Shown: piece by piece, positions 30,300 through 55,444 of the stretch
Layout of the letters: each line of letters opens with the position of its first letter
How positions within the stretch are numbered: the first letter of the stretch is position 1
NCBI RefSeq assembly: GCF_016793825.1
Contig: NZ_JAEULM010000050.1
Coordinates: 1 to 64,000, forward strand
Length of the DNA stretch: 64,000 nucleotides
Origin: Sphingopyxis sp.
Lineage (GTDB): Bacteria > Pseudomonadota > Alphaproteobacteria > Sphingomonadales > Sphingomonadaceae
Direction: 5' to 3'
Program-made: the position numbers and the translations under genes
Notes under the pieces: model-generated
Databases searched by the model: none
Told to the model about the DNA's origin: nothing
What the model saw: only the letters and a program-made list of their open reading frames with translations

Positions 30300-30371
30300 A
30301 TGCCCGTTCGCGCGTTCGTCAGCATCAGGGCCGAAGACAGGCGCACGCGCTGCGGGGACACGCGCGCATGA
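30300..30371 (+). CDS. Candidate 23-residue leader peptide
   Basis: An ATG at 30300 has an excellent ribosome site (GGGGGGAATAGG). It opens a 23-codon frame (Arg-rich, one Cys) whose TGA overlaps the ATG of the following large gene as ATGA. The large gene itself has only a distant GGGGA. This fits a leader ORF that delivers ribosomes to the main gene by coupling. The product is too short to assign a function, and the frame could still be fortuitous. Confidence 0.4.
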   Translation: MPVRAFVSIRAEDRRTRCGDTRA

Positions 30372-32803
30372 GCGAGCCGGTCAAGGTTGCGATTATCGGT
30401 TCGGGTCCTGCGGGGCTCAGCGCGGCCTCGCGCGCGGGGCAGCTTGGGCTCAGCCATGTCTTGCTCGAAAAGACCGATCATCTGTCCGACACCATCTTCA
30501 AATACCAGAAGGGCAAGCGCGTGCTGGCAACGCCCGAACGGCTCGACCTTCGATCGGATTGCCGTTTTGCGGAGGGCGCGCGCGAATATATCCTCGGCAA
30601 CTGGGACGAGGACGCGGCGAACAACAAGGTCAACGTCGTCAAACATGCCGAAGTCGCCGCGGTGACCGGCGAGAAGGGCGCTTTCGAAATCAAGACCGCC
30701 AGCGGCGATGTCTATCATGCGGAGAACATCGTCCTCGCGATCGGGACGCAGGGCAATCCGAACCGGATGCGCTGTGGCGGCGCGGACCTGCCGCACATCA
30801 TCTATCAGGTCGACGATCCCGAGGATTTCAAGGACAAGCACATCACGGTCGTCGGATCGGGTGATGCCGGGATCGAAAATGCGCTTGGCGTTGCCGAAGA
30901 GGCGCTGGAAAACACCGTTACGATCCTCAACCGTTCAAAGGATTTTGCGCGCGCAAAGGCGAAGAATGTCTCCGACATGATGGAGGCCGGCGAGAACGGC
31001 TTCATGTCGATCCGGACCGAAACGCAGCCGAAACTTGTCGAACCCGGCTGGCTGACGCTGGAGACGCCGACGGGCGATGAAAAGATCCAGTGCGATGTCA
31101 TTGTCGCGCGCCTCGGTTCGGTCGCGCCGCGCGGCTTCGTCGAATCGATGGGGATCGAATTCACCGGCCCGGACCGCGAAGCGTTTCCAAAGCTGTCGCC
31201 GACCTTTGAATCGACCGTGCCCGGCATCTTCGTGATCGGCGCTCTCGCGGGCTATCCGCTGATCAAGCATTGCATGAACCAGGGCTATGACGTCGTCGAG
31301 TTCATCAACGGCAACACCGGCCTGACCCCCGCCGATGAAAAGGACCTTGCGGCGATCTTCGCCAATCTGCCGCAGCAGAAGTCGGTCAGCGAATGGCTGG
31401 AATATCTGCGCGAGCGGGTTCGCATCTTCGCCGATGTATCGCCGCTGCAGATGCGCGAGTTCATGCTCGATTCGAAGGTCGCTTATTATCGCAAGGGCGA
31501 TGTGGTGTTCGAGAAGGGCGAGCCCGGATCGTCGCTGTTCGCCATCGCCGACGGCCATGCGGAGGTCGAGGTGGCGCCCGACGTCACCGTGCCGATCGAG
31601 CAGGGATCGATCTTTGGCGAAGTTGGCCTGATTTCGGGGCGCAAGCGCGGCGCGACCATTCGCGCGGGCGAAGACAGCATCTTTGTCGAGGTGTCGCGGA
31701 CGGCTGCGCTCAAGCTGATGGCGGCGGTTCCGGGTGCGAAGCGTGTGATCAACCGCATCTCGCTGGAGCGGCAATTGCTCCAGATCTTCAAGGGTGGGTT
31801 GACCGTCGAGGATCTGGGCCCGGTCGTCGACACCGCTGAGGTTGAGCGCATCCCGGCCGGCAAGGTGGTGGTGACCGAGGGCGAGCAGGGCGATGACGTC
31901 TATGTCATTCGATCGGGATCGATGGTGGTCGAGAAGGATATCGGCGGCAAGTCGATCTTCCTCCGCTACCTCCCCGCCGGCAGCTTCTTTGGCGAAATGG
32001 GCGTGCTGAGCGGAGCGCCCCGCAACGCGACGGTCAAGGCCGCGGTCGGCAGCGAGGTCATCAAACTGACCGGCGAAAGCTTCCGCAAGATGCTCGCGGC
32101 GCGGCCCAAGGTGCGCGAGGCGACCGAGGCCGCCGTTGCGGAGCGCGCGCAGATGAACAGCTTCATCGAATCGCGCAAGGCCAGCTATTCGAGCGCGGTC
32201 GACCTCTATTCCGACACCGCGGGCTTCATCATGAAGGAGGGCCTTGGCGAAGCGACCGACGCGCTGCTGATCGACGAAAATCTCTGCGTCGGCTGCGACA
32301 ATTGCGAAAAGGCCTGTGCCGACAGCCATGAAGGCCTGTCGCGGCTCGACCGCGAGGCGGGGAAGACCTTCGCGCACCTGCACGTACCGACAAGCTGCCG
32401 CCATTGCGAGCATCCGCACTGCATGGCCGACTGTCCGCCCAACGTCATCCACCGCGGCCCCGATGGCGAAGTGTTCATGGAACCGGGGTGCATCGGTTGC
32501 GGCAATTGCATGCGCAATTGCCCCTATGGTGTCATCCGCATGGAGGCGGCGCCGCCGCAAAAACCCAGCCTGCTGCGCTGGCTGCTCACTGGCTTCGGGC
32601 CCGGCCCGGGCGAGCCGTCGCCCAAATGGACCAAGAAGCAATTGGGTGAGGAAAAGCCCAAGAAGATCGCGGTGAAGTGCGACATGTGCAAGGGCATCGC
32701 CGGCGGCCCCGCATGCGTGCGCGCCTGTCCGACCGGCGCCGCGATCCGCGTGTCGCCCGAGGAATTCCTGTCGATCGCGCGGCTTCAGGAGGATGCGGGC
32801 TGA
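30368..32803 (+). CDS. FAD/NAD(P) oxidoreductase - two cNMP-binding domains - 4x[4Fe-4S] ferredoxin fusion
   Basis: An 811-residue cytoplasmic fusion of three modules. Residues 1-325 form a TrxR/YpdA-like flavoprotein with FAD motif GSGPAG (11-16) and NAD(P) motif GSGDAG (163-168); the CxxC of thioredoxin reductase is absent. Residues about 355-465 and 485-595 are two cyclic-nucleotide-binding domains; both keep the phosphate cassette (FGEVGLISGRKRGAT and FGEMGVLSGAPRNAT, with R427 and R552). Residues 630-800 form a ferredoxin with 16 Cys in four CxxC groups (640-650, 677-689, 708-718, 771-787), as in DmsB/HybA-type subunits. The expected flow is NAD(P)H to FAD to four clusters, gated by cAMP or cGMP. 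Its stop overlaps the start of the membrane cytochrome gene. Substrate and ligand are inferred. Confidence 0.88.
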   Translation: MSEPVKVAIIGSGPAGLSAASRAGQLGLSHVLLEKTDHLSDTIFKYQKGKRVLATPERLDLRSDCRFAEGAREYILGNWDEDAANNKVNVVKHAEVAAVTGEKGAFEIKTASGDVYHAENIVLAIGTQGNPNRMRCGGADLPHIIYQVDDPEDFKDKHITVVGSGDAGIENALGVAEEALENTVTILNRSKDFARAKAKNVSDMMEAGENGFMSIRTETQPKLVEPGWLTLETPTGDEKIQCDVIVARLGSVAPRGFVESMGIEFTGPDREAFPKLSPTFESTVPGIFVIGALAGYPLIKHCMNQGYDVVEFINGNTGLTPADEKDLAAIFANLPQQKSVSEWLEYLRERVRIFADVSPLQMREFMLDSKVAYYRKGDVVFEKGEPGSSLFAIADGHAEVEVAPDVTVPIEQGSIFGEVGLISGRKRGATIRAGEDSIFVEVSRTAALKLMAAVPGAKRVINRISLERQLLQIFKGGLTVEDLGPVVDTAEVERIPAGKVVVTEGEQGDDVYVIRSGSMVVEKDIGGKSIFLRYLPAGSFFGEMGVLSGAPRNATVKAAVGSEVIKLTGESFRKMLAARPKVREATEAAVAERAQMNSFIESRKASYSSAVDLYSDTAGFIMKEGLGEATDALLIDENLCVGCDNCEKACADSHEGLSRLDREAGKTFAHLHVPTSCRHCEHPHCMADCPPNVIHRGPDGEVFMEPGCIGCGNCMRNCPYGVIRMEAAPPQKPSLLRWLLTGFGPGPGEPSPKWTKKQLGEEKPKKIAVKCDMCKGIAGGPACVRACPTGAAIRVSPEEFLSIARLQEDAG

Positions 32804-33696
32804 TGGCGAGCCTGTTTCCCAAAAGACTCTTGAGCCGCCGGTCGAAGGCGACCCAGACCGAGCGCGTCCGCGAACGGCGACACGAGGGTTTCCTGCGTTA
32901 TGCCAATTTCCGCTGGGCAAAGATTTCGGGCGGGCTGTGCCTGCTGATCATCGTCAGCTATGCGCTGATCGACGTGACGCCGCGCCCGAACGGCGGAAGC
33001 TGGTACGGATATACGCTCGGCACGATCGGAGCCCTGTTGATCCTGTGGCTGACCGCGCTTGGTTATCGCAAGCGCAAGATGACAAGCGATTACTGGTCGC
33101 TCAAGGCGTGGACCTCAGCGCATGTGTATCTGGGGCTCAGCCTGATCGTCATCGGTACCTGGCACACGGGGTTCCAGCTCGGCTGGAATGTCCACACGCT
33201 CGCGTGGGTGCTGATGATGCTGGTGATCCTGTCGGGGCTATATGGCGTGATCGCCTATGCGACGCTGCCGGCCGCGCTTTCGAACAATCGCGACGAGATG
33301 ACGCAGATGCAGATGCTCGAGGCGATCCGGGCCTTCGACCGTCAGCTTCATGCTGCCGCACAGCCGCTGACGCCGGAAGATACCGCACCGGTGCTGGCGG
33401 CGCTCGACGAGGATCCTTTCGCGGGCGGAATCGCGGCGCGGTTGTCGGGACGCTATCCGCGCTGCGCCACTTCCGCCGCGCTCGTCGCTCTTGCGACTTC
33501 GCGGAGCAGTAACGCCGACGCGCGCGATAAGGTGGTCGGGCTGTTGAAACAGAAGGAAGCGGCGCTTGCGCGCCTGCGCCAGCATCTCAAGATACGGGCG
33601 CTGCTCGAAGTCTGGCTTTACGTGCATGTGCCGCTGACCTTTGCGCTGATTGCGGCGCTGTCGGCGCACATCATCAGCGTCTTTTTCTACTGGTAA
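32803..33696 (+). CDS. Membrane protein, probable di-heme cytochrome b
   Basis: A 297-residue inner-membrane protein with five probable helices (about 40-58, 65-87, 102-122, 131-155, 266-293) and a cytoplasmic or periplasmic loop of about 110 residues between the last two. H107 and H121 lie on helix 3 and H275 and H289 on helix 5, each pair 14 residues apart. This is the spacing of bis-His ligands for two stacked b hemes; H131 is an extra candidate. The start overlaps the previous stop (TGATG) with AGGAGG upstream. In context it would take electrons from the ferredoxin module and pass them across the membrane to the decaheme protein. I do not recognise a named family; the heme assignment is inference from His placement. 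Confidence 0.72.
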   Translation: MASLFPKRLLSRRSKATQTERVRERRHEGFLRYANFRWAKISGGLCLLIIVSYALIDVTPRPNGGSWYGYTLGTIGALLILWLTALGYRKRKMTSDYWSLKAWTSAHVYLGLSLIVIGTWHTGFQLGWNVHTLAWVLMMLVILSGLYGVIAYATLPAALSNNRDEMTQMQMLEAIRAFDRQLHAAAQPLTPEDTAPVLAALDEDPFAGGIAARLSGRYPRCATSAALVALATSRSSNADARDKVVGLLKQKEAALARLRQHLKIRALLEVWLYVHVPLTFALIAALSAHIISVFFYW

Positions 33697-33711
33697 GGCG
33701 GGGAGCGAACC

Positions 33712-35649
33712 ATGAGCTTCATCCTGCGCCGAATCTCGACGACGAAGACGGGCAAGCAGATCGTTCGCGACCAGCCGCTGCCGGGCGACACGATCACGCT
33801 TGGCCGCGAAGGCGGCAATACGATCCATATCGCCGATCTGGCGGTGAACCCGCAACACGCGACGATTACCAGCGCTGATGGACGACATGTCCGCGTGCTG
33901 GCGAGCGAGGGGCTGGGTTTCGACTTCAACGGGCGTACCGTCGATGTCGCGGACGTCGATAGCGCCGCCGGGGCCGAACTGCGTTTCGGTGGGCACCGCC
34001 TGACGATCGCGCGCGAAGGCGACAATGTCATCCTGCTGGTCGAGCGCATCGACGAGTTGTCGCAATCTTCGAAGGATGTTGACGAAGCGAAGGCCTTCTC
34101 GCTGCAAGGGGTGATGCCCGGCAAGCGCATGGGCGCCTGGGCTTTCGGAATATTGGTGCTGCTGGCCTTCCTGATCGGACCGATCTGGGCGTGGAGCAGC
34201 TTCAAGTCGGTCGATGAACGGCCCCAAGGCTATCACGCCGACAAGGCGTGGATGTCGGGACCGCTGTCGAGCGCGCACGCCAGTCTCAAGAATGATTGCC
34301 AATCCTGCCATGTCGAGCCGTTCGTGGCGGTGACCGACAAGGCGTGCGTCGGCTGCCACACCGGCGAACACAAGGCGATGAGCATGGCGCACGCCAACGC
34401 GCCGACCGCGATGCTGCTCGCCGCGCGGCATCCGCCGGGGGTGGGTGAGCGCATTCTCGCGGGCTTCGCGAAGACGTTCAACAAGCCGCAGGGGCGCTGC
34501 GTCGCCTGTCATACCGAACATGAAGGCGCCGGACCGATGCTGGCGACACCGCAGAAATTCTGCGCCGATTGCCATGACGGCATGTCGGCGCGGTTGCTGA
34601 AGGCGGGGTTCAAGCCGACGGTGGCCGATGCCGCCGATTTTGGCACCAGTCACCCCGAATTCCGCCCGATGGTCCGTACGGCGCCGGGTGCAAAGCCCGT
34701 CCGCGCGATGCCGGGCAAGGGGGCGCTCACCGATTTCGACGGGCTGAAATTCCCGCACGACGTACATTTGCAGGCGACCGGCGGCGTCGCGCGCATGGCG
34801 GCAAGCTTCCGCGGCCGGTACGACTTCGGCAAGAAGCTGGAGTGCGGGAATTGCCATCGCCCCGAGGCCGACGGGGTGCGGATCAAGCCGGTCGAGATGG
34901 AGCGCGACTGTGCGATGTGCCACAGCCTCGCGTTCGAGACCGTCGGCGGGGTCACGCGCACACTGCGCCATGGCGAGCCCGATCAGGTCGTCGCCGACCT
35001 CACCGCCTATTACCGCTCGACACCGCCGTCGCGTCCGCTGCAACTCGGCGGCATGGAGCGTCGTCGTCCCGGCGACTATGCCCAAGGCCAGGTGTATAAT
35101 ATCTATTTCCGCGAAGTTGCGATGCGCCCTAACCGGGCAGAGGATGCGGTGCGCGCTGTCTTTTCAAAGGGCGGCGCCTGTTACGACTGCCATACCATCT
35201 TCGCCCCGCAGGCCGGCAACAAGTGGCGCGTTCAGGCGGTCGACCAGACGCCGCGCTTCCTGACCAAGGGCTGGTTCGACCACGACGCGCACAAGGAAAC
35301 CGACTGCGCCGACTGCCACACCGCTGCGCCGGCGTCGAAGGCGGCGACGGATCTGCTCGTTCCCGGACTGCGCCAGTGCCGCGATTGCCATGTCGGGGAG
35401 ACGGGCGCGCGGGTGGTCAAGGTCGAAACCGCGACCGAATCGCCCTGCGCCATGTGTCATGAATATCATTCGGATGGCGGCAAACCGTGGATGCCGCAGC
35501 GACAGCGCAAAAAAAATGTCGCGTCGGTTACCGATCGTCCACCCCGGAACGTCTATGGTGTGACGCAGGTCACAGGTGGGGATTGGCGAAGCCTTTATGA
35601 TGTGACCTGGCGCACACCGGCGCTGGCGGCCGCAAGGCGGGGTGGATGA
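33712..35649 (+). CDS. FHA domain - membrane helix - decaheme cytochrome c
   Basis: A 645-residue protein. Residues about 5-110 resemble a forkhead-associated domain (LGREGGNTIHIADLAVNPQHATI), although the usual Ser-Arg before the His is Pro-Gln here, so phosphothreonine binding may be altered. A single membrane helix (141-163) follows. The periplasmic part has ten CxxCH heme-c motifs starting at 196, 212, 263, 284, 378, 400, 490, 532, 556 and 579, with many further His as distal ligands. No signal peptidase site is apparent, so it stays anchored. It starts 15 bases after the cytochrome b-like gene with GGGGAG. It is the likely periplasmic end of the electron path; the acceptor is unknown. 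Confidence 0.88.
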   Translation: MSFILRRISTTKTGKQIVRDQPLPGDTITLGREGGNTIHIADLAVNPQHATITSADGRHVRVLASEGLGFDFNGRTVDVADVDSAAGAELRFGGHRLTIAREGDNVILLVERIDELSQSSKDVDEAKAFSLQGVMPGKRMGAWAFGILVLLAFLIGPIWAWSSFKSVDERPQGYHADKAWMSGPLSSAHASLKNDCQSCHVEPFVAVTDKACVGCHTGEHKAMSMAHANAPTAMLLAARHPPGVGERILAGFAKTFNKPQGRCVACHTEHEGAGPMLATPQKFCADCHDGMSARLLKAGFKPTVADAADFGTSHPEFRPMVRTAPGAKPVRAMPGKGALTDFDGLKFPHDVHLQATGGVARMAASFRGRYDFGKKLECGNCHRPEADGVRIKPVEMERDCAMCHSLAFETVGGVTRTLRHGEPDQVVADLTAYYRSTPPSRPLQLGGMERRRPGDYAQGQVYNIYFREVAMRPNRAEDAVRAVFSKGGACYDCHTIFAPQAGNKWRVQAVDQTPRFLTKGWFDHDAHKETDCADCHTAAPASKAATDLLVPGLRQCRDCHVGETGARVVKVETATESPCAMCHEYHSDGGKPWMPQRQRKKNVASVTDRPPRNVYGVTQVTGGDWRSLYDVTWRTPALAAARRGG

Positions 35650-35700
35650 TTTGATACGGCGGTCGGGGAGACGTGGCCGGAGCAGGGGCAGGGAACCGAC

Positions 35701-36552
35701 ATGCTGATCGCCCAGATCACCGATATCCACATCGGTTTCGACCCGGATAATCCGGCCGAATATAACCGCAAGCGGCTCGACGACGTGCTCGATGTGCTGA
35801 TCGAGGGGCCGAACCGGCCCGACCTGCTGCTTGCAACCGGCGACATCACCGATCGTGGAGACTCCGACAGTTACCGGCGCCTCGCGACCGCTTTTTCACG
35901 CTGCCCCTTTCCGGTCTGGCCAAGCGTCGGGAACCACGACCTCCGCGACAATTTTCATGCCCAGTTTCCGGGCTTCGACGACGGCAACGGCTTTATCCAG
36001 TACACGGTCGAACTGCCCGAATTGCGGCTGGTGACGATTGACACGCTGGAGGAGGGGCGTCACGGCGGCGCCTTCTGCGAACAGCGCGCCGCGTGGCTCG
36101 ACGCCGAGCTATCCAAAGATCCTGCGAAGCCGACCTATGTCGTCATGCACCATCCGCCGGTCGAAAGCGGGATCGAGTGGATGAACACCGACCCCGATGA
36201 GCCGTGGGTCGCGGTGTTTACCGACGTCATTTCGCGCCATCCGCAGGTGCGCGGCCTTATCTGCGGTCATCTGCATCGCAGCGTCACGGTCGCGTGGGAA
36301 GGGCGGACAGTCGCGATCTGCTCCTCGACCGCGCCGCAGGTGTCGCTCGACCTGCGTCCGATCGACGAAAACCGGCCCGACGACCGACCGATGATTGTCG
36401 CCGAAGATCCCGCCTATGCCCTGCATCGCTGGAACGGGCGCGAGCTTGTGAGTTTTTACGACCACGCCGGTGCGCACACGATGCTCGCCAAATATGACGA
36501 ACGGCTCCAGCCGCTGGTCCGCGAATTGAAAGCTGAGCGGCCGGGTCAGTAG
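35701..36552 (+). CDS. CpdA-like class III cyclic-nucleotide phosphodiesterase
   Basis: A 283-residue cytoplasmic calcineurin-like phosphoesterase. All metal-site motifs are present: D8-x-H10 (ITDIHIG), GDITD with D48, GNHD (77-80), MHHPP (149-153) and GHLH (189-192). This set and length are those of the CpdA/Rv0805 group that hydrolyses 3',5'-cAMP. It lies 51 bases after the FHA-decaheme gene on the same strand, with AGGG upstream. Hydrolysis of the ligand sensed by the two cNMP-binding domains of the first gene would close a feedback loop; other phosphodiester substrates cannot be excluded. Its last seven bases overlap the dehydrogenase gene on the opposite strand. Confidence 0.85.
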   Translation: MLIAQITDIHIGFDPDNPAEYNRKRLDDVLDVLIEGPNRPDLLLATGDITDRGDSDSYRRLATAFSRCPFPVWPSVGNHDLRDNFHAQFPGFDDGNGFIQYTVELPELRLVTIDTLEEGRHGGAFCEQRAAWLDAELSKDPAKPTYVVMHHPPVESGIEWMNTDPDEPWVAVFTDVISRHPQVRGLICGHLHRSVTVAWEGRTVAICSSTAPQVSLDLRPIDENRPDDRPMIVAEDPAYALHRWNGRELVSFYDHAGAHTMLAKYDERLQPLVRELKAERPGQ

Positions 36553-39392: not shown

Positions 39393-42300
39393 TCAGGGCT
39401 GCTGCGTGTCGGTCGCCGGCGTCCACAGGTCGTCGTTGCCCGCGCCGGTCACTGGATCGTCGAGCAGCGGCTCGCCAGAGAGCGGGTCGAGATCGCGCAT
39501 CGTGATCAGCGCCGTCGGCAGGCTGATGCCGTCACCGTCGCTTCCGTCGCCGTCTTCGTCCTCGATCACATCCTGCACGGGGAACATCCGGTCTATTTCG
39601 ATCGTGACGCTCGTACACGCCCCGGTGTTGGCGATGAAGCAGCCGTTGAGCGTCGATCGGGGATCGAAGCCCAGCCCGCTCGCCGTGCCGCCGCTGGGGA
39701 CCGGCGAGCCGGCGATGGTGAGCAACTGGATGGTGTCGAGTCCGGTGACGAGGCCGTTCGCGCCAAGGTGGACGCCGTTGAGCACGATGCGCGGTGTTCC
39801 CCTCGGCAGGACATCTAGTCCTCCGGCGCCGAACGTGAGGCCCCGCCGCTGGCTGAAGTCGGTGCCTGAACCACTGTTCTGGACATAGGCTCCGCCGCCG
39901 ACTTCGAAAGCGATGCGGCGAGCGAGCAGCGCACCCTCGTCAAGGACGATGCCGTCATTCTGCGCGAGCCGCGCGCTGATCGCGTCGATCGAGTTCGCGT
40001 TTCGGACGTCGGTGATTGCGGCGGGCGTGGCGACGATGACGTCGTCGGATACCATGCGCAATATACCGCCGGGCGCATCATTGGCGCCGAGCAGGCGGAC
40101 CGTGCCTTGACCCAGAATGACCTCCAGCGCGTCGTTGGCGACCAGATTCAGGGCATTGGAGTCGGACAGGCCGGTCAACCGGACGTTGCCGAGCACGCGC
40201 ATCTTGCCGGGCGTGGTGATCGTCAATGACCCGCCGGGGCCAATGTTCGATCCCGGCGAGCCCCCGGTCATCGTGAACGTATCGACGATGACATCGGGTG
40301 GAGCGGCGCTGCCGACCGATCCGCCACCCACGGTATTGACCTCGGGCGCGAAGATCTGGATGTCGGCGGCGAACAGGCGCGTCAGTTCGTCGGCATCGAT
40401 ATGATAGCCGTTCTTGCTGCCGGTACCGCCGACGAAGGTCTGCTGTTCATCGTCGTTGTTGACGACTTCCAGGCTCCGCGTTCGTTCGGCGGTCCCCACG
40501 CGGCCGCTGGAGGCGATCGAGATGTCGGCCGACGCCAGCGAGATATCGAGGCCTGTCACGGTGCCGTCGATTGCGATGGTAGTTCCCGCGTTGGCATCCA
40601 GATCGCCCACCACGCTGACGTTCGTCATCGACAGCATTTCGTTGGCGTCGAAATCGGCGGCTCCGGCAGTGAGGTCGCGAATGATGATATGCTCGCCAGT
40701 GTCGCTGAAGCGCGCCGTGCCCGCAATATTGGCGGCGTTGATGATCAGGCGGTTGTTTGCCCGGATCGCCGCGTCGCCGACGTCGGTCACGATATTCGCG
40801 AACTCGACCGGGCCATTGGTTCCGATGTCCAGGCTGTCGGCATCGACGCTGACGGTATCGCGCACGCTGAGGCTGCCGACCCGTACGGCGCCTGCGTCGC
40901 TGGTCAACGTCATCACGCCGCGGCTGCGCAAAATGTTCGCATCGATGCCGTCCACGCCGGTCAGCGTCAATTCCGCGTCTTCGCCGCTCGCGGCCTCATC
41001 GATGGCGATGGCGCCGTCGGCGGTCAGGGTCAGGCTGCCCCCGGCCGTCAGCGCGCCGCCTGTGATGTCGGTCGCGGACGTAACGCCGATGTTGCCGCCG
41101 GCGCTGATCGTGTCGATGGTCTGACCTCCCGGCGTCACGAGATTGGCGAGGGTCACGGCGTCGGCGTTGATCGAGACGTTCCGGCCCGCGATGACGGTGC
41201 CCGTGACATCCGCCGTACCGGTCGAATCGATCAGGACGTCACTGAATGCGTTCAATCCCGAAATGCTGGTGTCGCCGCCGGTGGTGCGGATGCTGCTGTC
41301 GCCGCCCGTGATGCCGACGCCGAACGTCGTCGCGCCGTTCAGGGCAATCGTCGCTGCGGACAGGAAGATGTCGTCGCCGGCGTATAGTTCGGCCGCATTG
41401 ATCGATCCGCCAGAGGAGCGAATGTCGATATCGGCGCCATCCAGCGTCGAAGATCCTTCGCCCTGGTTGATGGTGAAGCCACTCGAAGGCGAGTAGTTGA
41501 GCTGGAAGCCGTCGGGACCGAGACCCGTCGCGCGCACATTGGTCGCCCGGATGTTACCGGCGGCCCGCACGTCGATGTCATCGCCCACCGTGACGTTGGC
41601 CAGCGTTGCCGTGCCCTGCGCGAGGACAAGCATATCCTCGCCGACCGTTGCGCCGTCGATGCTGGCCGATCCGCCAGCGTTGACGCCGAACATTCCCGAG
41701 GCCTGGTTGTCGGTCAGCGAAATGTTGCCACCCGCTTCGGCGTATACGCTCGCCGCGACGGGGGAGCCGCTGCTACTGCTGCTGCCGTCGCCGATGGCTC
41801 TGGCGGACGCGACGATGTCGCCGTCGGCTTGCAGGAACACGTCTTCGCCCCCTGCATAGACGCCTGTGATGTTACCCTGTGCCCGTATGTCGATGCTTTG
41901 CGCGAGGCTCGCCTGATCAATCGCTACATTGCCGCCTGACGCGAAGGCCGACAGATATCCATCCGCGGTGATCGAATCGATGTCGATGCTGTTCCCGTTC
42001 AGCAAGACATTGCCGTCGCCTGTTATCGTCCCGCCACGGATGCCCTCGAAACCGGGGCTGGTTCCTGTCGCGGTCAAACCGATGAAGAAGCCTCCGTCGA
42101 TGTTGGTGAAGTCGATCGACTGGCCGATCACAGAGACGAAGCCGCCTGCGGTCGAGTTACCGAGATTCACCGCGCCGGCGGCCGTAATCTGGATGTCGCC
42201 GCCGGTGATGATCGAGTTGCGACCTGTGCGGAAGCTGCCGACTTCGGCGCGAAGACTGTCGTCTGCTTCGGCATGTTCGACGTCCGCGTGGCCGGCGGTG

Positions 42301-45300
42301 TTGATGACGATTTCGCCGCCTTTTATGCGATCGACGTCGATATAGGCATTCGCGTTTGTGGTGTTCAGCTGAAGCCTTCCGTCTGCATCCAGCGATGAGC
42401 CGTCCGCGCCGCTGATGCTGTTGCCCGCCGTGATCAGGAAATCGCCGCCCGTGGACACGGTCGGATTCCCGGTTTGACCCCGCAGATCGACCTGATCGTC
42501 GGCCGCCATGGTCAGGTTTCCTCCGGCGCTCACAAGCCCGCCGTCCTGACCGTAAACGCCGATGGATCCGCTGGCGCGCAGCGTCATCTCGCCGGTCGTG
42601 CTGATCGTCCCACCGTTGGTCTCAAGAAAGATGCCCTGTGCGATTTCACTCGTATTGTTATTGGTGGGGAAGGAAAAACCGAAGGTGTCGGCGACCAGGC
42701 TCGACATCGTGATGTTGCCGCCGGCGTGCATTTCGATGCGTCCCGCCGCGCCGCCACTCGCCTCGATCGTCGTGTCACCCAGTGAAATCCGCCCCGCGCC
42801 GGCCGAGGTCGTCAGCGTTTCGAAAATGACGCGACCGCCGAAATCGATAAAGGACGAACAACAATTCCCGACGCCGCCCGATCCAGTACCGCCGGCGCCG
42901 CCATCTCCCGACATGCCGGCCACCGAGATTTCGACGGCTGCACCTCCCGACGTGATTGTTCCGCCGGCCGCAGACAGGCGAACGGTCCCGCCGCTTCCTT
43001 CGCCGCCAATGCCTCCGTTACCACCCTGCAATCCCTGGATGATGTCGTCCGGCGTTCCGAGGACAAGGTCGTCACCGGGCAGCGTTATCGTGCCCGGATT
43101 GTCGGCGCCGCGCCCGCCGTCACCACCCGTTCCGGTACTGGTAAACAGGTTGCCGCCGGAACGGCCGATGCCCAATCCCACGGTTCCGCGATCGGTCGCG
43201 ACGATTTCGATTTCGCCGCCCATGCCGAAACCGCCGTTGCCGCCAGTGGCGCCGGTCCGGGGGCGCGAGGAGGATGCCGTGCCTGCGGAACCGCCATTGC
43301 CGCCGACGGCGCTGTTTTCGAAGTTCGCCTGCGATACGGTGATCGAGGCGCCTTCGCCCGTCGCTTCGATCCGCGAGCGCCCGCCGATCGCATCGCCGCC
43401 ATTGCCGCCGTTGCCGTCGCTTCCATCGCCGCCATTGCCGCCGCGCGCCGATGTGTCGAGCAACAGTGCGAGGTCGCCGGCATCATAATTATCGACGATC
43501 GCCTGCGCGAGGCCTCCCGTACCGGCGCCCCCGCTGCCCCCGATCGAACCGTCGCCGCCGTTTCCTCCGGCGCCTGATGCCCGGCTCGACAGGCTTTCGC
43601 TGATGTCGAGCAGCGTGGAGCCGATGTTGATCGTGGCGAAGCCACCATTACCGTCGCCGCCTTTTCCGCCCACGCTGGCGCCGATTGGGGAACCCGAACT
43701 GGAGGAATCCACCAGGCTGCCGCCGCTGCCACCGAAACCGCCGGCATCGGCAACTATCGCGTCGCTGTTGACCTCGCCCGACAGAAGGTTGATGTCGGCA
43801 TTGCCGCCACGACCGCTGCCGCCATCGGCGCCCGAACCCGCGATACCATTGTAGGAATAGAAATCGCCGCCGGCGGCGCCGGTGCCGCTTGCATAGGCGG
43901 CGAGCACGGCCGTGTTGACGACGGCGTCGTTTTCGACCCGGATCAGGGCATTGCCGCCGCGTCCATCCCCGCCGGCTCCCGCCGCAAGGATGTTGGAAGA
44001 ATCGAAATCATCGCCGTCGAACGCGGATCCACCCGTCCCGTTCGCCGTCACGCTGACGTCGCCGCCTGTGAAGACGCCGCCGGAGAAAATCATCGATGCG
44101 TCGCCGCCGATGCCTTCGCCCGAGCGACCTTCCATCTGGCCGCCAATGCCGTTGGCGCTGAGCTGGATGTTGCCGACGTTGACGTCCCCGGCGATCTGCG
44201 TGAAGGTCGCTGATCCTCCGCGACCGGTGGCGCTGGTTCCGCCAAGGCCGCCGTAGCCGTTGGCCGTCAGGTTCGCTCCCCCCGAGATTGTGAAATCGGC
44301 GCCGTTCGCCTCAATGGCGATGGTGCCGCCCTGGCCGTCGCCGGAAGGCTCGAAATTTCCACCACCGCTGCCTTCGACAAAGGCCAGCGTGCGTCCATCG
44401 GCGCTGCCGCTGAAGGTCACGATGTTCATTTGACTGGCCGAACTGAACCCGGTCCGGATGACGATATTGCCGCCCAGGCCGACGGGTTGCTCTTCACCCG
44501 GGACGAGTGCGCCGCCCGATAAGCCGCTGGCGCTCAGGATGAGATTGGCAAGGCGGATCGTCCCTTCGTTCGCGAACAGGGTGATGTCCCCGCCGGTTGC
44601 CGAGCTGCCGCCCTGACTATAGCCGGTTTGAGCGTTGACGCCCATGAAGTCGAGGCCGTCGCTGAGCGATTCGACCAGGCCGCCGTTCAGCGCGGTCATG
44701 GTTATCCGCCCGCCGCGTGCGATGCCGTTGTTTCCGTTTGCGTTGACGACATTGGCCCGCGCGTCGAGGTCGTAGTAGGCGGCACCGATCGAGCCGCTGG
44801 TGTCGGCAAGAATAGTCACGGTGCCGCCAGTGCCGCTGCCAACCGTTTGCGGGAGGCCGCTCGACAGGCTGCCGCCAAAGGCGTTCACGCTGACGCCGTC
44901 GCTAAACGTTATCGCGCCGCCGCTCAGCGCCGACACTGTGACGTTGCCGCCAGTACCGCTCCCGATGTTCTCGCTGGCCGCAGACAGGCCCGCGACGTCG
45001 ATCGTCGCATTTCCGCCGACTTGCAGGGCTGATCCGCCCCTGGCCGTGACGTTGATACTGCCGCCCTGCGCATTCCCCGAAAGCGCGGTCAGACCGGTCG
45101 GGCTGGTCGATCCGCCGCTATCGGCGCGACTATTCAGCGACAGGTTGCTGATGAACGGCGTGGCCCCGCCATCGATCGTTACATTGATGGTTCCGCCGGC
45201 CGCGTTACCACCGATCGTATTTTCGGAGTTGCCGGCACCGCCGCCGCTCGCCGCCGCGTTCAGCCCGACGTCGCCGAGGTTGAGCCCCGAATAGGCACCG

Positions 45301-47255: not shown

Positions 47256-47285
47256 GGCATGGGTCCTCGATGCAAACGTCATGGC

Positions 47286-49112: not shown

Positions 49113-49246
49113 TACCACCCCTTGTGTACACGCACGTCCGCGAGCGGCGGACGCGCCAAAATTCCGGTGCCCGCCGCTGGTCCGGCAGTGCGAATTTTCG
49201 ACCCAAGGAAAGGACTTACCGCTTTGTTGCGGTTGCTTTTGTCCGA

Positions 49247-49291: not shown

Positions 49292-50056
49292 TTAACCACC
49301 CGCTGTTTCAGTTTCTGACATCGTGTCGACAAGGCGGTTTAACTGCGGTGAGCAACCCTTGGCCATCAGCATGTCGACCGACCCTTCGACCGTGTCGGGG
49401 ACAGTGCCCATCGCGGCGAAACGGACCGTCACGGGCCTGGCAAGGCCGGCGCCCGACAGGCGATAATCCACCCCATATTGCACCGGCAGCGTGTCGGTCG
49501 GCCATTTGCGGAAATTGGCGCCATCGACGATCGCGACCGTCGCCTTCTTGCCAGCGCTTTCGATCTCGAGTGCTGTGTCGCCTTCCATGTTGGGGCGCCA
49601 CAGCATCAACGTTGCGGGATCGACGACACAGAAGGTGCCGGCCTCGCGATAATCGAGCAGCCACAGGTTCGGCGCCCGCACGTTGATCGGGGTATCGGTC
49701 TCGGCGCCGCGAGAGAACCCGCCGCGCGACCGCATCGTCGGGCCGGTCGAAAGCATGCGGGTCACCGTGGCGCCCATGTTCTGGTTTGCCTGGATCTGGC
49801 CCGTCGCGCCGAACGTACCCGGCCCCGACAGCGTCCGGGTCTTGCCCGACTGCATCAGGACGACCTTGTCGCCGGCGACCAGCGACAATTTGTCGGTCGA
49901 CTTGAGTTTGGTGCCAGTCGGATATTTTCCGGCCGACGGGCCCGTCGAACGGACGACCATCGACTGGGCGGCAGCGGTACCGGCGAAGGCAATCGCCGCG
50001 ACGGCTGCGGCGGCAGTCAGGCCGATGCGGCGCATCGAGAAATCAGGAAAGGACAT
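49292..50056 (-). CDS. Exported FecR-like protein
   Basis: A 254-residue secreted or periplasmic protein. Signal peptide MRRIGLTAAAAVAAIAFAGTAAAQ is preceded by about seven residues. The next 60 residues (TGTKLKSTDKLSLVAGDKVVLM, KTRTLSGPGTFGATG) resemble a FecR-type beta domain. The C-terminal half is unassigned, with two Cys. The ATG at 50056 has GGAGAAAG upstream and overlaps the cyclase stop by 14 bases, so translation is coupled to the cyclase. Function unknown; it belongs to the CHAT/CHASE2 group by position. Confidence 0.72.
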   Translation of the reverse strand: MSFPDFSMRRIGLTAAAAVAAIAFAGTAAAQSMVVRSTGPSAGKYPTGTKLKSTDKLSLVAGDKVVLMQSGKTRTLSGPGTFGATGQIQANQNMGATVTRMLSTGPTMRSRGGFSRGAETDTPINVRAPNLWLLDYREAGTFCVVDPATLMLWRPNMEGDTALEIESAGKKATVAIVDGANFRKWPTDTLPVQYGVDYRLSGAGLARPVTVRFAAMGTVPDTVEGSVDMLMAKGCSPQLNRLVDTMSETETAGG

Positions 50057-52118
50057 AGCTTTCTCCACTTTCGGTCTCGTTCAGGCGTTCTATCAGGAAC
50101 ATTATGGATGGATCCTGACTAAATTCGCGAACCAGCGCTGTGGCGCAGGTCACATAGGCGTTTTTATCTCCGGCGGCGTGCGCCGCGACCAGTTCGGCGA
50201 TGCGCGCACGCTGAGCGGGCGGCAGGTCGGGACGCGGGGTCAAGGCATCGACCGGCTGCGCGCGGCCGCGCAGCGTGACGCGGCCCATCGGTACAAGGTC
50301 GTCGCGGTCGGCCCGCGCGGCGGCCTCCGCCGAAATCAGCACGCCGGTCTTGAGGCTCTTGTTCGCCGATTCGAGGCGCGAGGCGGTGTTCATGCTGTCG
50401 CCAAGCGCGGTGTACTGGATTCGATCCTCGCCGCCAAAATTGCCGACGATCGCGTCGCCGACGTGCAGGCCGACACGCGTCATGCCGAGCGGAGGGACAT
50501 CCTCGGCCGCCAGGTCGACGCGGAATTTTTCACCCGCTTCGTACATGGCGAGCGCCGCAGCCGCAGCTTGCGGTCCGTCGTTCGGGCGGCTGAGCGGGGC
50601 GCCCCAGAAGGCAACGACCGCGTCGCCGACGAACTTGTCGATCGTCCCGCCATGTTCGAGCACGACGTCCGACAGGCGGTCGAGATATTCGTTGAGCAGG
50701 CGCGCGACGGTTTCAGGCGTCACCGCATGACTGAGTTTCGTGAAACCTTCGAGATCGGTGAATACGCAGAAGATGTTGCGGCGCTCCCCGTGGAGCGACA
50801 ATTGGTCGGGGTCGCGCATGATCTGCGCCGCGACGTCGGCGGGCAGATATTTGCCGAGCGCCGATTGCGCGAAAGCGCGCTGACGCGACCCGATCGTGCG
50901 CGCGGCGGTGCCGACTGCAGCATAACCCAGCAGCCATCCGAGCGCCCAGCCGAAGGCGGGAAGGGTCGTCGTATCGACACCATGACCCTGCAGCCAGAAA
51001 GGGAAGGCGACGAAGAAGGCCATCTGGCCCAGAAAGGCGACGGCCACCCAGCGCGCGCGCATGTCGACGAGGCTGGTGAGCCCGCCGGCCAGGACGACGA
51101 GGACGGCAAGCGCCCACAGCGCGGCGCCGGGCAGGGGATTGGACCAGTCGTTGTCGAGTTGCTGCGCCAGCATATGCGCATGCACTTCCAACCCGATCAT
51201 CGTTTCGTGCTGGCCGGTGATCGGATCGGTGAAGCGGCTGAGCGGGATGTTGAACTGGTCGTTGTCGATGACGTCGCCGCCGATCAGGACATAGCGATCC
51301 TTGACCAGTTCCGCAAAACCCGCGCGCGTTTCAGCGTCCATCGGCATCGCGAAGGTGTCGATCGGAATATTCGCGAATACAGGCTCTTCCTGCCCCTTGG
51401 CGACGCGGGCAGGCACGAGAAAGCGAATATTGCCCCGATAGTTGGCATGTCCGGGATCGACGGGCGCGAGCGCGTTCGCCATCAGCGGCGGCAGGTTCTT
51501 CGGCCGGTCGGGCCAATTGCGGATGACCCCGTCGCCGTCGGTGCGGAACAGCACGCTGGTCGGCTTCGTCCTGTCGGTCGTGACGTCGGCCAGATAGGAT
51601 TCGAGATATTTCTGCTGCTCATAAAAGATTGTGTTCGGATTGCTCGCCTGCTCGGCATAGGCCAGCCATGTCGGCGTCTTCATCGCGCGGAGCTGCGCCT
51701 TCAGGAGGTCGTCGTCGGGGCGTGGTGAATCGAACACGATATCGATACCGATCGCCTTCGGGCCCATCTGGTCGAGGTTGGCGAGCGCGTTCGCCAGCAG
51801 CGTCCGGTCGAGCGGCGATCGAATGCCGGTGTTGAACAGGGTTTCGTCATTATAGGTGACCATGACGATACGCTTGTCCTGTTCGACATGCGGCGCCATC
51901 ACCATCGCGCGCGCATCGTACAGCGCACGTTCGGCGTCGCCGACGAGCGGCATCTGCCAGCTGAAGCGCGCGAACAGCGTGGCGACGATCAGGAACAACA
52001 TCGTGGCGACCATCCGCGACGGGCCGAGTTCCATGACCAGCCGACGGATGCGCTTGCCGAGCGGCACCGCCGCGGCGCGCGCCTCTTCCGTCGCGGGTTC
52101 GATCGCAGGTGTCGTCAT
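50043..52118 (-). CDS. CHASE2 sensor - class III adenylate/guanylate cyclase
   Basis: A 691-residue inner-membrane receptor cyclase. One membrane helix (about 38-60) is followed by an extracytoplasmic CHASE2 domain (about 65-335; AIGIDIVFDSPRPDD and YVLIGGDVIDNDQF are typical). Three closely spaced helices (near 350-430) lead to the catalytic domain (about 465-640). Metal-binding Asp (FCVFTDLEGFTKL and GDAVVAFWGAP), the purine-selecting Lys (IDKFVGD) and Asn/Arg of the transition-state site (LGDSMNTASRLES) are all there, so it should be active, probably making cAMP. It starts four bases after the CHAT gene stop. Confidence 0.92.
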   Translation of the reverse strand: MTTPAIEPATEEARAAAVPLGKRIRRLVMELGPSRMVATMLFLIVATLFARFSWQMPLVGDAERALYDARAMVMAPHVEQDKRIVMVTYNDETLFNTGIRSPLDRTLLANALANLDQMGPKAIGIDIVFDSPRPDDDLLKAQLRAMKTPTWLAYAEQASNPNTIFYEQQKYLESYLADVTTDRTKPTSVLFRTDGDGVIRNWPDRPKNLPPLMANALAPVDPGHANYRGNIRFLVPARVAKGQEEPVFANIPIDTFAMPMDAETRAGFAELVKDRYVLIGGDVIDNDQFNIPLSRFTDPITGQHETMIGLEVHAHMLAQQLDNDWSNPLPGAALWALAVLVVLAGGLTSLVDMRARWVAVAFLGQMAFFVAFPFWLQGHGVDTTTLPAFGWALGWLLGYAAVGTAARTIGSRQRAFAQSALGKYLPADVAAQIMRDPDQLSLHGERRNIFCVFTDLEGFTKLSHAVTPETVARLLNEYLDRLSDVVLEHGGTIDKFVGDAVVAFWGAPLSRPNDGPQAAAAALAMYEAGEKFRVDLAAEDVPPLGMTRVGLHVGDAIVGNFGGEDRIQYTALGDSMNTASRLESANKSLKTGVLISAEAAARADRDDLVPMGRVTLRGRAQPVDALTPRPDLPPAQRARIAELVAAHAAGDKNAYVTCATALVREFSQDPSIMFLIERLNETESGESYVLS

Positions 52119-52122
52119 CGGA

Positions 52123-55100
52123 TCAGCGGGCGCCGCGGCCTGCAGCCTCCCCGTTTTGCGCGGTGGAGGTCGGGCCGTGCAGCAACGCCTGACCGCCATC
52201 GCCGATGATGGCGAAGCCCGCCCAGTAATAGGGGTGCGAAGTCTGCTTTTGGTCCATCAGCTTTGCCTGCGTCGCCCATAGCGCGTCGGCGATGCTCTCT
52301 CCCTGCCTTGCGGCAAAGAGTCCGCCGATCAGCCGCTTGGTCGCATCGAAGTCGTCGGGCGCGGGCCAATGGCTTGCGATGATCGATCGGCCGCCCGCGC
52401 CGATGAAGCTGCGGACCAGTCCGTCGAGGGCATTGCCGCCGCCGCTGGCGACGCCGGCTTCGCGCGTCGCGGCGACCGAGGCCGCGCCGGCAGTATCGCA
52501 GGCCGACAGAATGACCAGATCGGCATCGATCTTGAGGTCGAAGATTTCCTGGAAGGTAAGGAGGCCATCCGAATCCTGATCGCCGAACGAGGTCACCAGC
52601 GCGGGACGCGCGGGGCACGAGGGGTGGGGCGCTGTGACGAGGCCGTGCGTCGCGAAGTGGATGATGCGATAGTCGGACAGGTCGCCGCGGTTTTTCACGG
52701 CGGTATCGGTGAAGGCGCCGCCGGTAAGCAGCGTCGCCGCACCGCGATCCATCGTGTTGCTCGCGGTGACAAGCTCCTCGGCCGAGATCGGTCGGCTCCA
52801 CTGGGTGACGTCCCACTGGCAACTGCCGTCGGCCGCACCCCCGGCCACGCCGCGCGTCCCGGTCGACGGCAAGACGCCCCCGACCACGGGTAGATTTTGA
52901 CCTAGCCCGAAATATTCGCGGCTGCCGTTCGATGGCGGCGTCTGGCGGGCATTGCGGAACGAGAGCGCCGAAACCGCGGTGCTCGGTCGCGTTGCCCGGC
53001 CCAGCCAGGCGATCTGGCGCATGTCGAAGGCATCGGCATTGGGATCGTTGACCCGCTGCTCATAGGCGGCAAGTCCGGTATCCGATGTGATCAGCAGGTT
53101 GATCGGCAATCGCAGCATTGCGCCATCGGGTTCGAAGATCAGGTGCGGAACGCCGGGCAGCCGGTCGGCGACGGGGGCGAAGAGCTGCGTATAGAGTTTG
53201 CGCGCGGTGATCGCGTCGAAGGGATAGGTAACGCGCTTGCCGTTTTCGACGATCGAGATCGTCGACCGGATGCTGTCGACGGCGTTTTCGAGGCCCTGAT
53301 TGCTGACGTCGGTGCGCCACAATTGTGCGGCTTTGCTGTCGATCAACATGGCATAGACGGCATCGCCAACGACAAGCATCTTCAGATAGGCTTCGTCGGG
53401 ACGCAACACCTGTTGCAGTTCGGCCAGATCGAGCTTGCCCGATGCGACGACGCGGTATTGCGGATAGGCCGACAGCTTCGCGACCGTTTCCGCCTGCTGA
53501 AACGACAGGTTGTCGATCTGGGTCTTGAGGTCGGCGCGCATCGCGTTGACCTCGGGCGTGACGGGAAGCTGTGCGAGGCGAGCATCCTCGATCCGCGCGC
53601 GCTCGATATCGCGATTGAGCGTCGTCGCCTGCCGGAACAGGCGTGCGCCGTCGCCGTCGCCTGCCGACAATTCGCGGGCGAGAACCGCCTGCGTGTCGGC
53701 AACGCCGGGGCGCACCTGCAACTGGCTGGCGACGAAGAAGTCGCTTACCGCCGTGGGATCTGTCGCCGAGCGGTTTGCGAGCAACCGGTAATAGGGCGCC
53801 ATCATGTTCGCCATTCCGGTCGTCGAACGTTGCGATCCCGCCAGCGCCGCGACGACGTCGCGATAAATGCCGAGCGCCTTGTCGTCCTGTCCGTGGCGGG
53901 TGAGGAATGCCGCATAGCGTGCGCGCGCGGAGGCGAGGGCATTTGTTTCGGGATATTCCACCGCGAGCGCGCCGATCGACTCCTGAAAGCGCGCGTCGGC
54001 TGCGGCCGTGTCGCCGACCGCCTCCTCGGCCAGCGCAAGTTCGCCGAGCATTTGCGAGCGGAGCCGGACGATCGAGGTCACACGGCCTTCGCGCACTGCG
54101 ATTGCGTCGGCCAGCCCCTTGATCTGTGCGGCCTTTGCCGCCTCTGGATTACCGCGCAGCCGTTCGACGGTGCCGAGCAGGTGAACGGCCTGCGCATCGA
54201 TGATCTGGGCGCGTTCAAGTGGGGTCAAGCGCTCGCGGTCGCCGGTCTGGCGGACGGCTCGGGCGTTGTTGCCGCTGTTCACGCCGGCCACGATCTCGGG
54301 AGTCAGCGTCACTGCGCCGGCTTCGACCGTCACCGCGTTCGTCAGTGGCGGGATCGGCGTCTGGAGCAACGCCGCCGCGCCGTCATAGTCGCGCTGATTG
54401 AGTGCGTGGATCGCCCGGAAATTGCGACGGAGGCGAAGCTGTACCGGGTCGCCGGTCGGGATCGCCTCGACCTCGGCGAACAGCCGTTCGGCTTCGGCAA
54501 ATTCGCCGAGGTTCGATCGCTGAAGTGCGCGGTTCAGAGTGAATTCGGTGGGATCGAGATCGCCAGCGGCCTGATCTTCGACGGCGCGGCGCGACAGCGC
54601 TTCGAAAAATTCGGCGGCTTCGGCGTAATCGCCGCTGTGGTTGCGGCGATATCCCTCGGCCAGCGCCTTGTCGACGTCGATCGTTCCCGCGAGGGTACGC
54701 GCAAACCCGTCGTTGCCGCCGACGGACGTCGTTGCGACCCTGATCTGGCCGGAGGCGACCTTGTGATCGCGGATGGATTCGAGCGCAAGGTTCAGCGCGT
54801 CGTCATAGGCGGTGAAACCCTCTGCGGTGTAAGTAGTATCGCCGGCCTCCTCGATCCGGGTGGTCCAGCCGACATTGCTGTCCTTGACCGTGCAGGTGCC
54901 GTCGGCGGCGCACAGAATGGTTCCGGCGCGGCCCTGCTCGATGCGCGCCCGCGCCTCGGCAGGCGGGGCGCGGAGGACGCGGACATAGCCGATCGGCTGA
55001 CTCGCATCGCGGCAGACGATCGTCCAGGCGCGATCGAACATGCCCTTGACCACGGAATCGCGAACCGTCGCCTGCACTTCGCAAAGCGAGCCGCCCTGAT

Positions 55101-55230: not shown

Positions 55231-55444
55231 CACCAATCCCCCAAGCCAAACCTCAAGGCACCACGTCCGCTATTCCGGCGGCATGGCGCAGTCTTTACAG
55301 TGCTGCGGTACGACCCATTCCCGTCGGCGCGGACCCTAAACCCATCGTTTGAAAAAGGGAAGTGATCTGCGGCACAGCGCCTTGCGCGCGTCCGCGCCCC
55401 GACCTATTTGGGGACAGACCCTTAATATCCGACGAGGAACAAAG

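Follow-up and report, generated by a model that had tools for sequence, protein, structure and literature searches.

The described conduit that comes closest to the system reported here is PCC4, which was proposed by He et al. in 2017 (PMC5566968). As set out in the main text of that paper, PCC4 comprises a porin, periplasmic cytochromes with 4, 5 and 10 hemes and other redox proteins, was proposed in the contexts of Fe(II) and Mn(II) oxidizers, and has the lack of an extracellular multiheme cytochrome among its criteria. Its inner-membrane protein is described there as having five transmembrane (TM) helices, with an SGXXG motif on TM4 and WX3HX13H on TM3 and TM5, and in subgroup II an Fe-S protein of pfam13247 is encoded upstream of the membrane-protein gene. 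For CbcL/MtrH/MtoC, the relevant part of PMC6295460 describes one fused protein acting on the quinone pool. Here we compare with these systems a locus from Sphingopyxis sp. (assembly GCF_016793825.1, contig NZ_JAEULM010000050.1), lying in a stretch of 64,000 nucleotides that we refer to as the window. On the basis of the open reading frame (ORF) list and translations, the window carries four co-directional plus-strand genes over 30368-36552. On balance, we lean towards reading the first three (P1-P2-P3) as the inner-membrane half of a conduit, similar to the putative PCC4, that would carry electrons across the cell envelope by way of an outer-membrane module. The four genes are as follows, with lengths in amino acids (aa):

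30368..32803, plus strand: P1, 811 aa; TrxR/YpdA-like flavin adenine dinucleotide (FAD)-NAD(P)H domain at about residues 1-310, tandem cyclic-nucleotide (cNMP)-binding domains at about 350-600 and a 16-Cys 4x[4Fe-4S] ferredoxin domain at about 633-800 (from Pfam and NCBIfam, Cys positions, PDB profile matches and conservation).

32803..33696, plus strand: P2, 297 aa; five-helix inner-membrane protein, putative di-heme cytochrome b (from AlphaFold, invariant His and the PCC3/PCC4 motif set in the main text of PMC5566968).

33712..35649, plus strand: P3, 645 aa; N-terminal FHA-like domain, one TM helix at about 140-158 and a decaheme c-type cytochrome domain (from the CXXCH count and FHA matches in relatives).

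35701..36552, plus strand: P4, 283 aa; calcineurin-like (CpdA/SpdA-related) phosphoesterase, accessory and found mainly in the window's own family (from Pfam, NCBIfam and neighbourhood).

A preliminary description of this DNA had reported four adjacent ORFs with these domains, and both their coordinates and their domains were borne out. It gave the gaps between them as 0, 15 and 51 bases; the last two are exact (P2-P3 and P3-P4), whereas P1 and P2 in fact overlap by one base (TGATG). Median ratios of nonsynonymous to synonymous substitution against 13 congeners are low (P1 0.064, P2 0.123, P3 0.143, P4 0.068) and P1 has a strong match in 56 of the 60 genomes of the genus, the window's included, so that the four-gene observation reflects more than chance. 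A scan returned no promoter-like sites, and seven terminator-like sites against 4.9 expected.

The preliminary description had named conservation of the neighbourhood in advance as the test on which its proposal could fail, and the neighbouring genes are kept together in related genomes. In a survey of 240 genomes of the class (P1 at E<=1e-60, P3 at E<=1e-3), P1 was present in 20 and P3 in 22. Twenty of the 21 P3 loci outside the window's genome were examined, G037 being dropped for a weak, short match; P2 adjoins P3 in all 20 and P1 adjoins them too in 17, with P1 on a different contig from P2/P3 in G178 and G120. A scan of named genomes with the P1 alignment gave at least 499 relatives, of which we kept the best 80, ranked against an alphaproteobacterial P1. 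These 80 named loci contain no sphingomonads and include Rhodospirillaceae, other Alphaproteobacteria, Dokdonella, Tahibacter, Lysobacter, Solimonas and betaproteobacterial genomes. P2 was found in 65 of them and P3 in 69, many of the misses being stretches that end before the expected place of the gene. A sample of 398 genomes drawn from the phylum yielded P1 at E<=1e-100 in 15, eight of which belong to the window's own family.

The fourth gene behaves differently. P4 was correctly described as a calcineurin-like phosphoesterase (Metallophos E 8.4e-17 in Pfam), a superfamily-level assignment, as it falls below the NCBIfam equivalog cut-offs for SpdA (136 bits, cut-off 400) and CpdA (78.4 bits, cut-off 225). 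It adjoins the core in 13 of 13 congeneric loci examined, in L041, in all three Sphingobium plasmids viewed, in L174 and in L180, and a relative was found in none of the 80 named loci. We therefore rejected the four genes as a unit, a verdict that concerns groups other than sphingomonads. Judged by gene content, P1-P2-P3 is a conserved core across Alpha-, Beta- and Gammaproteobacteria, to which mainly the window's own family has added the phosphoesterase. No further conserved neighbours of the core emerged; recurring extra ORFs, judged by eye and without a Pfam scan, looked like out-of-frame ORFs in known genes or ordinary synteny.

P1 is the best conserved of the three core proteins, with 63-65% identity within the window's family and 44-63% elsewhere, P2 and P3 being lower. 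Its Pfam matches are Pyr_redox_3 (E 2.4e-30), cNMP_binding twice (E 1.8e-33) and Fer4_7 (E 1.2e-13), and the 16 cysteines of the ferredoxin domain fall into four groups of four. A profile from 12 P1 relatives matched YpdA/FNR, the regulatory tandem domains of PKA/PKG and the Fe-S subunit of formate hydrogenlyase in the PDB. The second Rossmann motif reads NRRDEFARAK in many relatives, which we take to resemble the NADPH site of thioredoxin reductase. In the phosphate-binding cassettes of the cNMP domains the Glu/Arg pairs, E418/R427 and E543/R552, are invariant in both domains across 21 sequences (one truncated); both domains thus carry the cassette Glu and Arg of cyclic-nucleotide-binding proteins.

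P2 was modelled by AlphaFold as five membrane helices (predicted local distance difference test score, pLDDT, 89.3) and contains the motifs W104-x3-H108-x13-H122, S145-G-x-x-G149 and W272-x3-H276-x13-H290, where numbering follows translation P0002, in which residue 1 is the codon before the ATG. H108, H122, H132, H276 and H290 are invariant in 24 of 24 sequences and again in 55 of 55, with both HX13H motifs invariant in the 55. In cytochrome b and FRD proteins HX13H pairs serve as ligands of two b hemes, according to the argument in the main text of He et al. (PMC5566968), and H108/H122 and H276/H290 resemble such ligand pairs, which would make P2 a putative di-heme b protein. This agrees with the five helices and His spacing noticed initially. 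The Pfam b561 match is below threshold (E 3e-4, 21 bits against a cut-off of 30.1), and P2 has no match to the Ferric_reduct/FRD domain (PF01794) at E<=0.1.

P3 has exactly ten CXXCH motifs, as do all 61 P3-like ORFs of more than 500 aa in the named loci, and nine further His outside these motifs are invariant. The FHA match of the window's P3 is weak (E 0.029), and 38 of the 45 family members scanned, out of 62 sequences collected, match FHA at E<=0.01, so its description as an FHA-anchored decaheme cytochrome c stands. The position of the TM helix would place the cytochrome domain on the periplasmic side. FHA recognition loops contain Gly-Arg and a Ser that contacts phosphothreonine. In the P3 family G31/R32 is invariant, but the Ser is not conserved, which makes phosphothreonine binding doubtful, and with it the phosphoprotein input that had been suggested. 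P3 scores 20.5 bits against the NCBIfam model of the DmsE-family decaheme cytochromes, whose cut-off is 192.2. By its description in a table of PMC10734462, cluster 403 of a Gallionellaceae pangenome resembles P3 in name and heme count: a 'Forkhead-associated protein' with 10 CXXCH, present in 27 of 87 iron-oxidizer genomes.

The core is accompanied by genes for an outer-membrane module, which takes two forms. Type A, defined as one or more of an HbpS-like protein, an outer-membrane barrel and a decaheme LVIVD cytochrome of about 1270 aa, was found with the core in 62 of the 80 named loci (HbpS-like protein in 58, barrel in 55, LVIVD cytochrome in 53). Type B, a pentaheme cytochrome with a different barrel, was found in seven; the two types never occur together in one locus, and 11 loci have neither. 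A tetraheme c554 is often present. In Pfam, the LVIVD part (E 1.1e-10) and the HbpS-like protein (E 3.5e-18) are recognized and the barrel has no match. For the Oceanibacterium barrel, AlphaFold (51 sequences) gave a model of about 19 strands with a pLDDT of 79.6, whose structural matches include AlgE and porins (best E 3.1e-17). An MtrB-type barrel was considered and rejected on this AlgE-like match, no MtrB being among the best 50 matches listed. In the window's genome the module lies on another contig than the core, C8, and runs in one direction: a c554-like tetraheme cytochrome (484 aa), an HbpS-like protein with a lipobox, a barrel, and an LVIVD cytochrome (1439 aa, 10 CXXCH) with a signal-like N-terminus. 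We would place the barrel and its LVIVD cytochrome provisionally at the outer membrane or surface. The pentaheme cytochrome and its porin were not found in L064 and L065, the stretches of the window's genome to which that search was confined, and the barrel on C8 is a different one. In the three Sphingobium plasmids viewed, in L041 and in L174, core and outer module lie side by side and convergent.

Distribution suggests that the two modules belong together. All 15 class genomes with a strong LVIVD match (E<1e-50) lie within the 20 that have P1; five other class genomes have weak partial LVIVD matches. Among the five P1 genomes without a strong match, G025 ends inside the HbpS-like gene, G060, G105 and G120 are type B, and G052 has only a nearby c554. 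Within the genus, P1 occurs in 56 and LVIVD in 57 of the 60 genomes: G254 and G256 (99% complete) lack both, and G257 (85% complete, P3 at a contig edge) and G270 (73%) have LVIVD with P1 missing. As the genomes are related, this co-occurrence is support and not proof. A redox path from NAD(P)H to the periplasm had been proposed; its inner-membrane electron-transfer part is supported, but because an outer-membrane module co-occurs with the core the path probably does not stop in the periplasm.

The likeness to PCC4, as that conduit appears in the main text of PMC5566968, extends over several parts. P2 has the five TM helices, the SGXXG and the two WX3HX13H motifs, with the motif residues invariant in 55 sequences; P3 is a ten-heme cytochrome with an inferred periplasmic side; and P1 matches PF13247 (E 8.5e-10) and is encoded directly upstream of P2. 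The window's genome adds a barrel and the C8 tetraheme cytochrome, matched by heme count, and type B loci have hemes 4, 5 and 10 as described. Two differences stand against this: the window's lineage and most relatives are type A, with an LVIVD decaheme cytochrome, an HbpS-like protein and another barrel, and the window's genome has the two halves on separate contigs. Because the type B set and the membrane-protein motifs match PCC4, the kind of conduit is already known, and the initial view that no such system had been described does not hold: the 2017 proposal of PCC4 already included a five-helix protein with these motifs, a cytochrome of 10 hemes and a partner with Fe-S clusters. Judged from these features, the core is probably the inner part of a widespread PCC4-like conduit, with type B loci fitting PCC4 and type A (LVIVD) a variant of it. 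The main text of He et al. does not contain 'FHA', 'cyclic nucleotide', 'LVIVD' or 'pyridine', and its Supplementary Figure 4, on domain architectures, may already draw the P1 architecture. A paper of 2026 mentions PCC4 once, in passing. The literature searched, which covered few subscription papers and no bioRxiv preprints, yielded no description of either the type A module or control by cNMP.

Other systems share fewer features. CbcL/MtrH/MtoC likewise tie a di-heme b membrane part to a multiheme c domain and are linked to outer-membrane conduits, but as a fused single protein, and the available text of PMC6295460 contains neither 'NADH' nor 'cyclic nucleotide'. With MtrCAB/MtoAB/PioAB the locus shares the logic of a decaheme cytochrome and an outer-membrane barrel, whereas P3 is anchored in the inner membrane and fails the DmsE-family model, and the barrel model is AlgE-like. 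With NADPH oxidases and ferric reductases it shares the HX13H di-heme spacing and the NAD(P)H and FAD input; here, in contrast, there are separate subunits, four Fe-S clusters, a multiheme output and no FRD match in Pfam.

In the mechanism we propose, electrons would pass in the cytoplasm from NAD(P)H to FAD and the four predicted [4Fe-4S] clusters of P1, then to two b hemes in P2 and ten c hemes of P3 in the periplasm. From P3 they would reach the tetraheme c554 and the outer-membrane barrel with its LVIVD decaheme cytochrome, and finally an acceptor (or donor) on the cell surface or beyond it. With NAD(P)H as the source, the downhill default would be flow outwards, and the reverse would be possible. 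In P1 the flavin and Fe-S domains flank the tandem cNMP domains, so that binding of a nucleotide could act as a switch on the passage of electrons.

A candidate source of the nucleotide lies in the window itself, beside a small gene:

50043..52199, minus strand: CHASE2-type class III nucleotide cyclase (PF05226 E 1.8e-25, PF00211 E 2.4e-17), its catalytic domain about 17.5 kb from P1; candidate cNMP source and possible partner.

49292..50068, minus strand: small protein beside the cyclase, with a signal-like N-terminus and no Pfam match.

We searched 32 genomes with the cassette for PF00211 and took all 16 with at most five matches for a linkage test. In eight of these 16 the distance from P1 to a class III cyclase is at most 25 kb, against 0.71 expected under random placement (none of 2 million simulations reached eight): G000, the window's genome (17.5 kb), G145 (20.9), G579 (17.9), G627 (14.1), G539 (9.6), G648 (23.6), G299 (4.2) and G641 (21.7). 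The others (G412, G623, G668, G052, G126, G230, G226 and G438) have none within that distance. Outside the window's family the linkage is 4/9 against 0.51 expected (P 0.0007), and with other distances it is 2/16 at 10 kb (P 0.03) and 8/16 at 50 kb (P 5e-6). Seven of the eight linked cyclases, G579's being left out, were scanned with Pfam: six are of the CHASE2 type (the window, L174, L175, L167, L176, L178) and one is of the FIST type (L182). In L174 (G627), the genome's only cyclase heads a close-packed one-strand run of six genes (cyclase, small protein, c554, HbpS-like protein, barrel, LVIVD cytochrome), its small protein, between cyclase and c554, being a 33% relative of that at 49292..50068. 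In L175 (G539), a P4 relative (39%) ends three bases before a CHASE2 cyclase, between the two modules. Together with the invariant cassette residues, this linkage upholds the suggestion of a cNMP-binding subunit in an inner-membrane electron-transfer module. It is plausible that the nearby cyclase tunes the conduit through a cyclic nucleotide: the nucleotide would come from the CHASE2 cyclase, presumably a sensor of the envelope, and would be removed by a P4-type phosphoesterase in those lineages that have one. Taken to its full extent, the idea would be a second-messenger-gated valve: the cyclase would set the level of cAMP or cGMP, whose binding to the PKA-regulator-like tandem module of the NAD(P)H:Fe-S oxidoreductase would gate a wire of about 26 hemes from cytoplasmic NAD(P)H to the outside, and a phosphodiesterase would reset it in some lineages. 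We offer this tentatively, as a possibility that may well prove wrong.

Several observations weigh against these readings. For P2, a PDB sequence search gave no convincing solved relative (best E 0.053) and Foldseek with the model no match at E<=0.001, so that the two hemes rest on motif spacing. The modelled barrel of about 19 strands resembles AlgE and may or may not be able to hold a cytochrome. G293 (99% complete) has P1 and P3 but no match to the LVIVD cytochrome or barrel, a clear exception; G224 has P2/P3 and no P1 match; L147 (Tahibacter aquaticus) has the three-gene core with no recognized outer-membrane genes in the next 7 kb; and L129 (Thiomargarita) and L136 (Thiotrichales) have kilobases beside P1 without heme genes in the examined stretch. 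As for the nucleotide circuit, neither P4 nor the cyclase is universal beside the core; the 25-kb threshold was set post hoc, with some of the data already known; a single family supplies four of the eight linked genomes, and at 5 kb the count is just 1/16 (P 0.14). A cyclase ORF lies in only five of the 80 named loci, within the examined stretches, a number that cyclase-rich genomes may give by chance, and in L175 unrelated genes part P3 from the P4 relative (about 4.7 kb).

It is also possible that the cNMP domains survive as mere structural leftovers, the cyclase lying nearby by coincidence, a reading compatible with the conduit and one that we take seriously without favouring it. It would account for the eight of 16 tested genomes without a cyclase within 25 kb and for the failure to find P4 in the 80 named loci, but leftovers would not be expected to keep both Glu/Arg pairs invariant in 21 sequences (one truncated), and the gene-run linkage in L174 and L175 speaks against an incidental cyclase. 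The direction of flow allows another reading, in which electrons from a donor outside the cell, for example Fe(II) or Mn(II), would enter through the outer module and pass via P3 and P2 to quinone, as drawn for PCC4 in the main text of PMC5566968, with P1 a side branch. The oxidizer contexts in which PCC4 was proposed and the shared motif set of P2 are in keeping with such uptake. We think it unlikely, since no other core protein is as well conserved as P1, a flavoprotein of the NAD(P)H type, and this makes the cytoplasmic side look central; in addition, most named hosts are presumably aerobic heterotrophs and not metal oxidizers.

Two further readings were weighed. In the first, the LVIVD cytochrome would be an enzyme of the periplasm or cell surface that acts on a single soluble compound; its substrate would enter through the barrel, the remaining proteins would form its reductase chain, and no conduit would cross the outer membrane. 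A barrel model closest to the alginate exporter and porins, an HbpS-like partner without CXXCH and an LVIVD cytochrome with a large non-heme part all suit an enzyme, but in type B loci another cytochrome/barrel pair accompanies the same core, which is what exchangeable outer conduits would lead one to expect, and we regard this reading as quite improbable. The locus might also be a bacterial counterpart of NADPH oxidases and ferric reductases, with NADPH electrons reducing ferric iron for uptake, or O2 at the surface. HX13H pairs like those of FRD/NOX proteins (main text of PMC5566968) and an operon that also encodes a flavin and NAD(P)H domain recommend this, whereas P2 lacks the Ferric_reduct match, three or more multiheme cytochromes seem excessive, and no iron-uptake gene was recognized by eye among recurring neighbours; we consider it very unlikely. 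The trans-envelope conduit thus remains the reading towards which we lean.

Some observations on the surroundings and spread of the locus may be added. At 39393-49118 the window has a 2629-aa secreted-type ORF without a Pfam match beside an ShlB/FhaC-type transporter gene. A distant relative of the C-terminal part of this ORF (34-39%) lies upstream of the c554 gene in the Sphingobium plasmids L069-L071. That this two-partner-secretion cluster adjoining the cassette is part of the system is no more than a passing thought: its position is synteny within the genus, and in Sphingobium distant relatives of its genes are found close to the outer module. At 52123-55236 a CHAT-domain protein is encoded next to the CHASE2 cyclase; in L183 the set of CHAT protein, CHASE2 cyclase, small protein, ShlB and exoprotein recurs on a contig other than that of P1. 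A search of PLSDB with P2 matched 12 of 72,556 plasmids, all from Sphingobium, and Sphingobium plasmid genes are 62-70% identical to the window's P1 and P2. In L069-L071 the replicons that carry the whole system measure 0.96-1.28 Mb. PLSDB types one of these three as conjugative, and the system may therefore be passed from strain to strain. In L143 (4266-15133), two P1 genes, each after a tetraheme c554 gene, face each other across two ORFs of about 820 aa, which suggests duplication of the module. P1 relatives in L129, L136 and L154 (the last on a contig titled Mycobacteriaceae) are 57-59% identical to the query, with no multiheme or P2 genes in the examined stretch; the flavin-cNMP-ferredoxin protein perhaps has a different partner there. 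L145, L148, L158 and L164 are contigs of metagenome-assembled genomes labelled Klebsiella pneumoniae or Bordetella parapertussis, but their loci resemble those of environmental Pseudomonadota, and the species names look wrong.

If these readings are right, a conduit proposed mainly from iron-oxidizer genomes would be much wider, as P1 is present in 15 of 398 genomes of the phylum and 56 of 60 of the genus. It would be fed by NAD(P)H and not by quinol alone, and it would be controlled directly by a cyclic nucleotide. The gated valve, if true, would mean that aerobic heterotrophs such as sphingomonads control extracellular electron transfer post-translationally. Bacteria living aerobically in soil and water would then have an unrecognized means of exchanging electrons with their surroundings, together with a switch for it.

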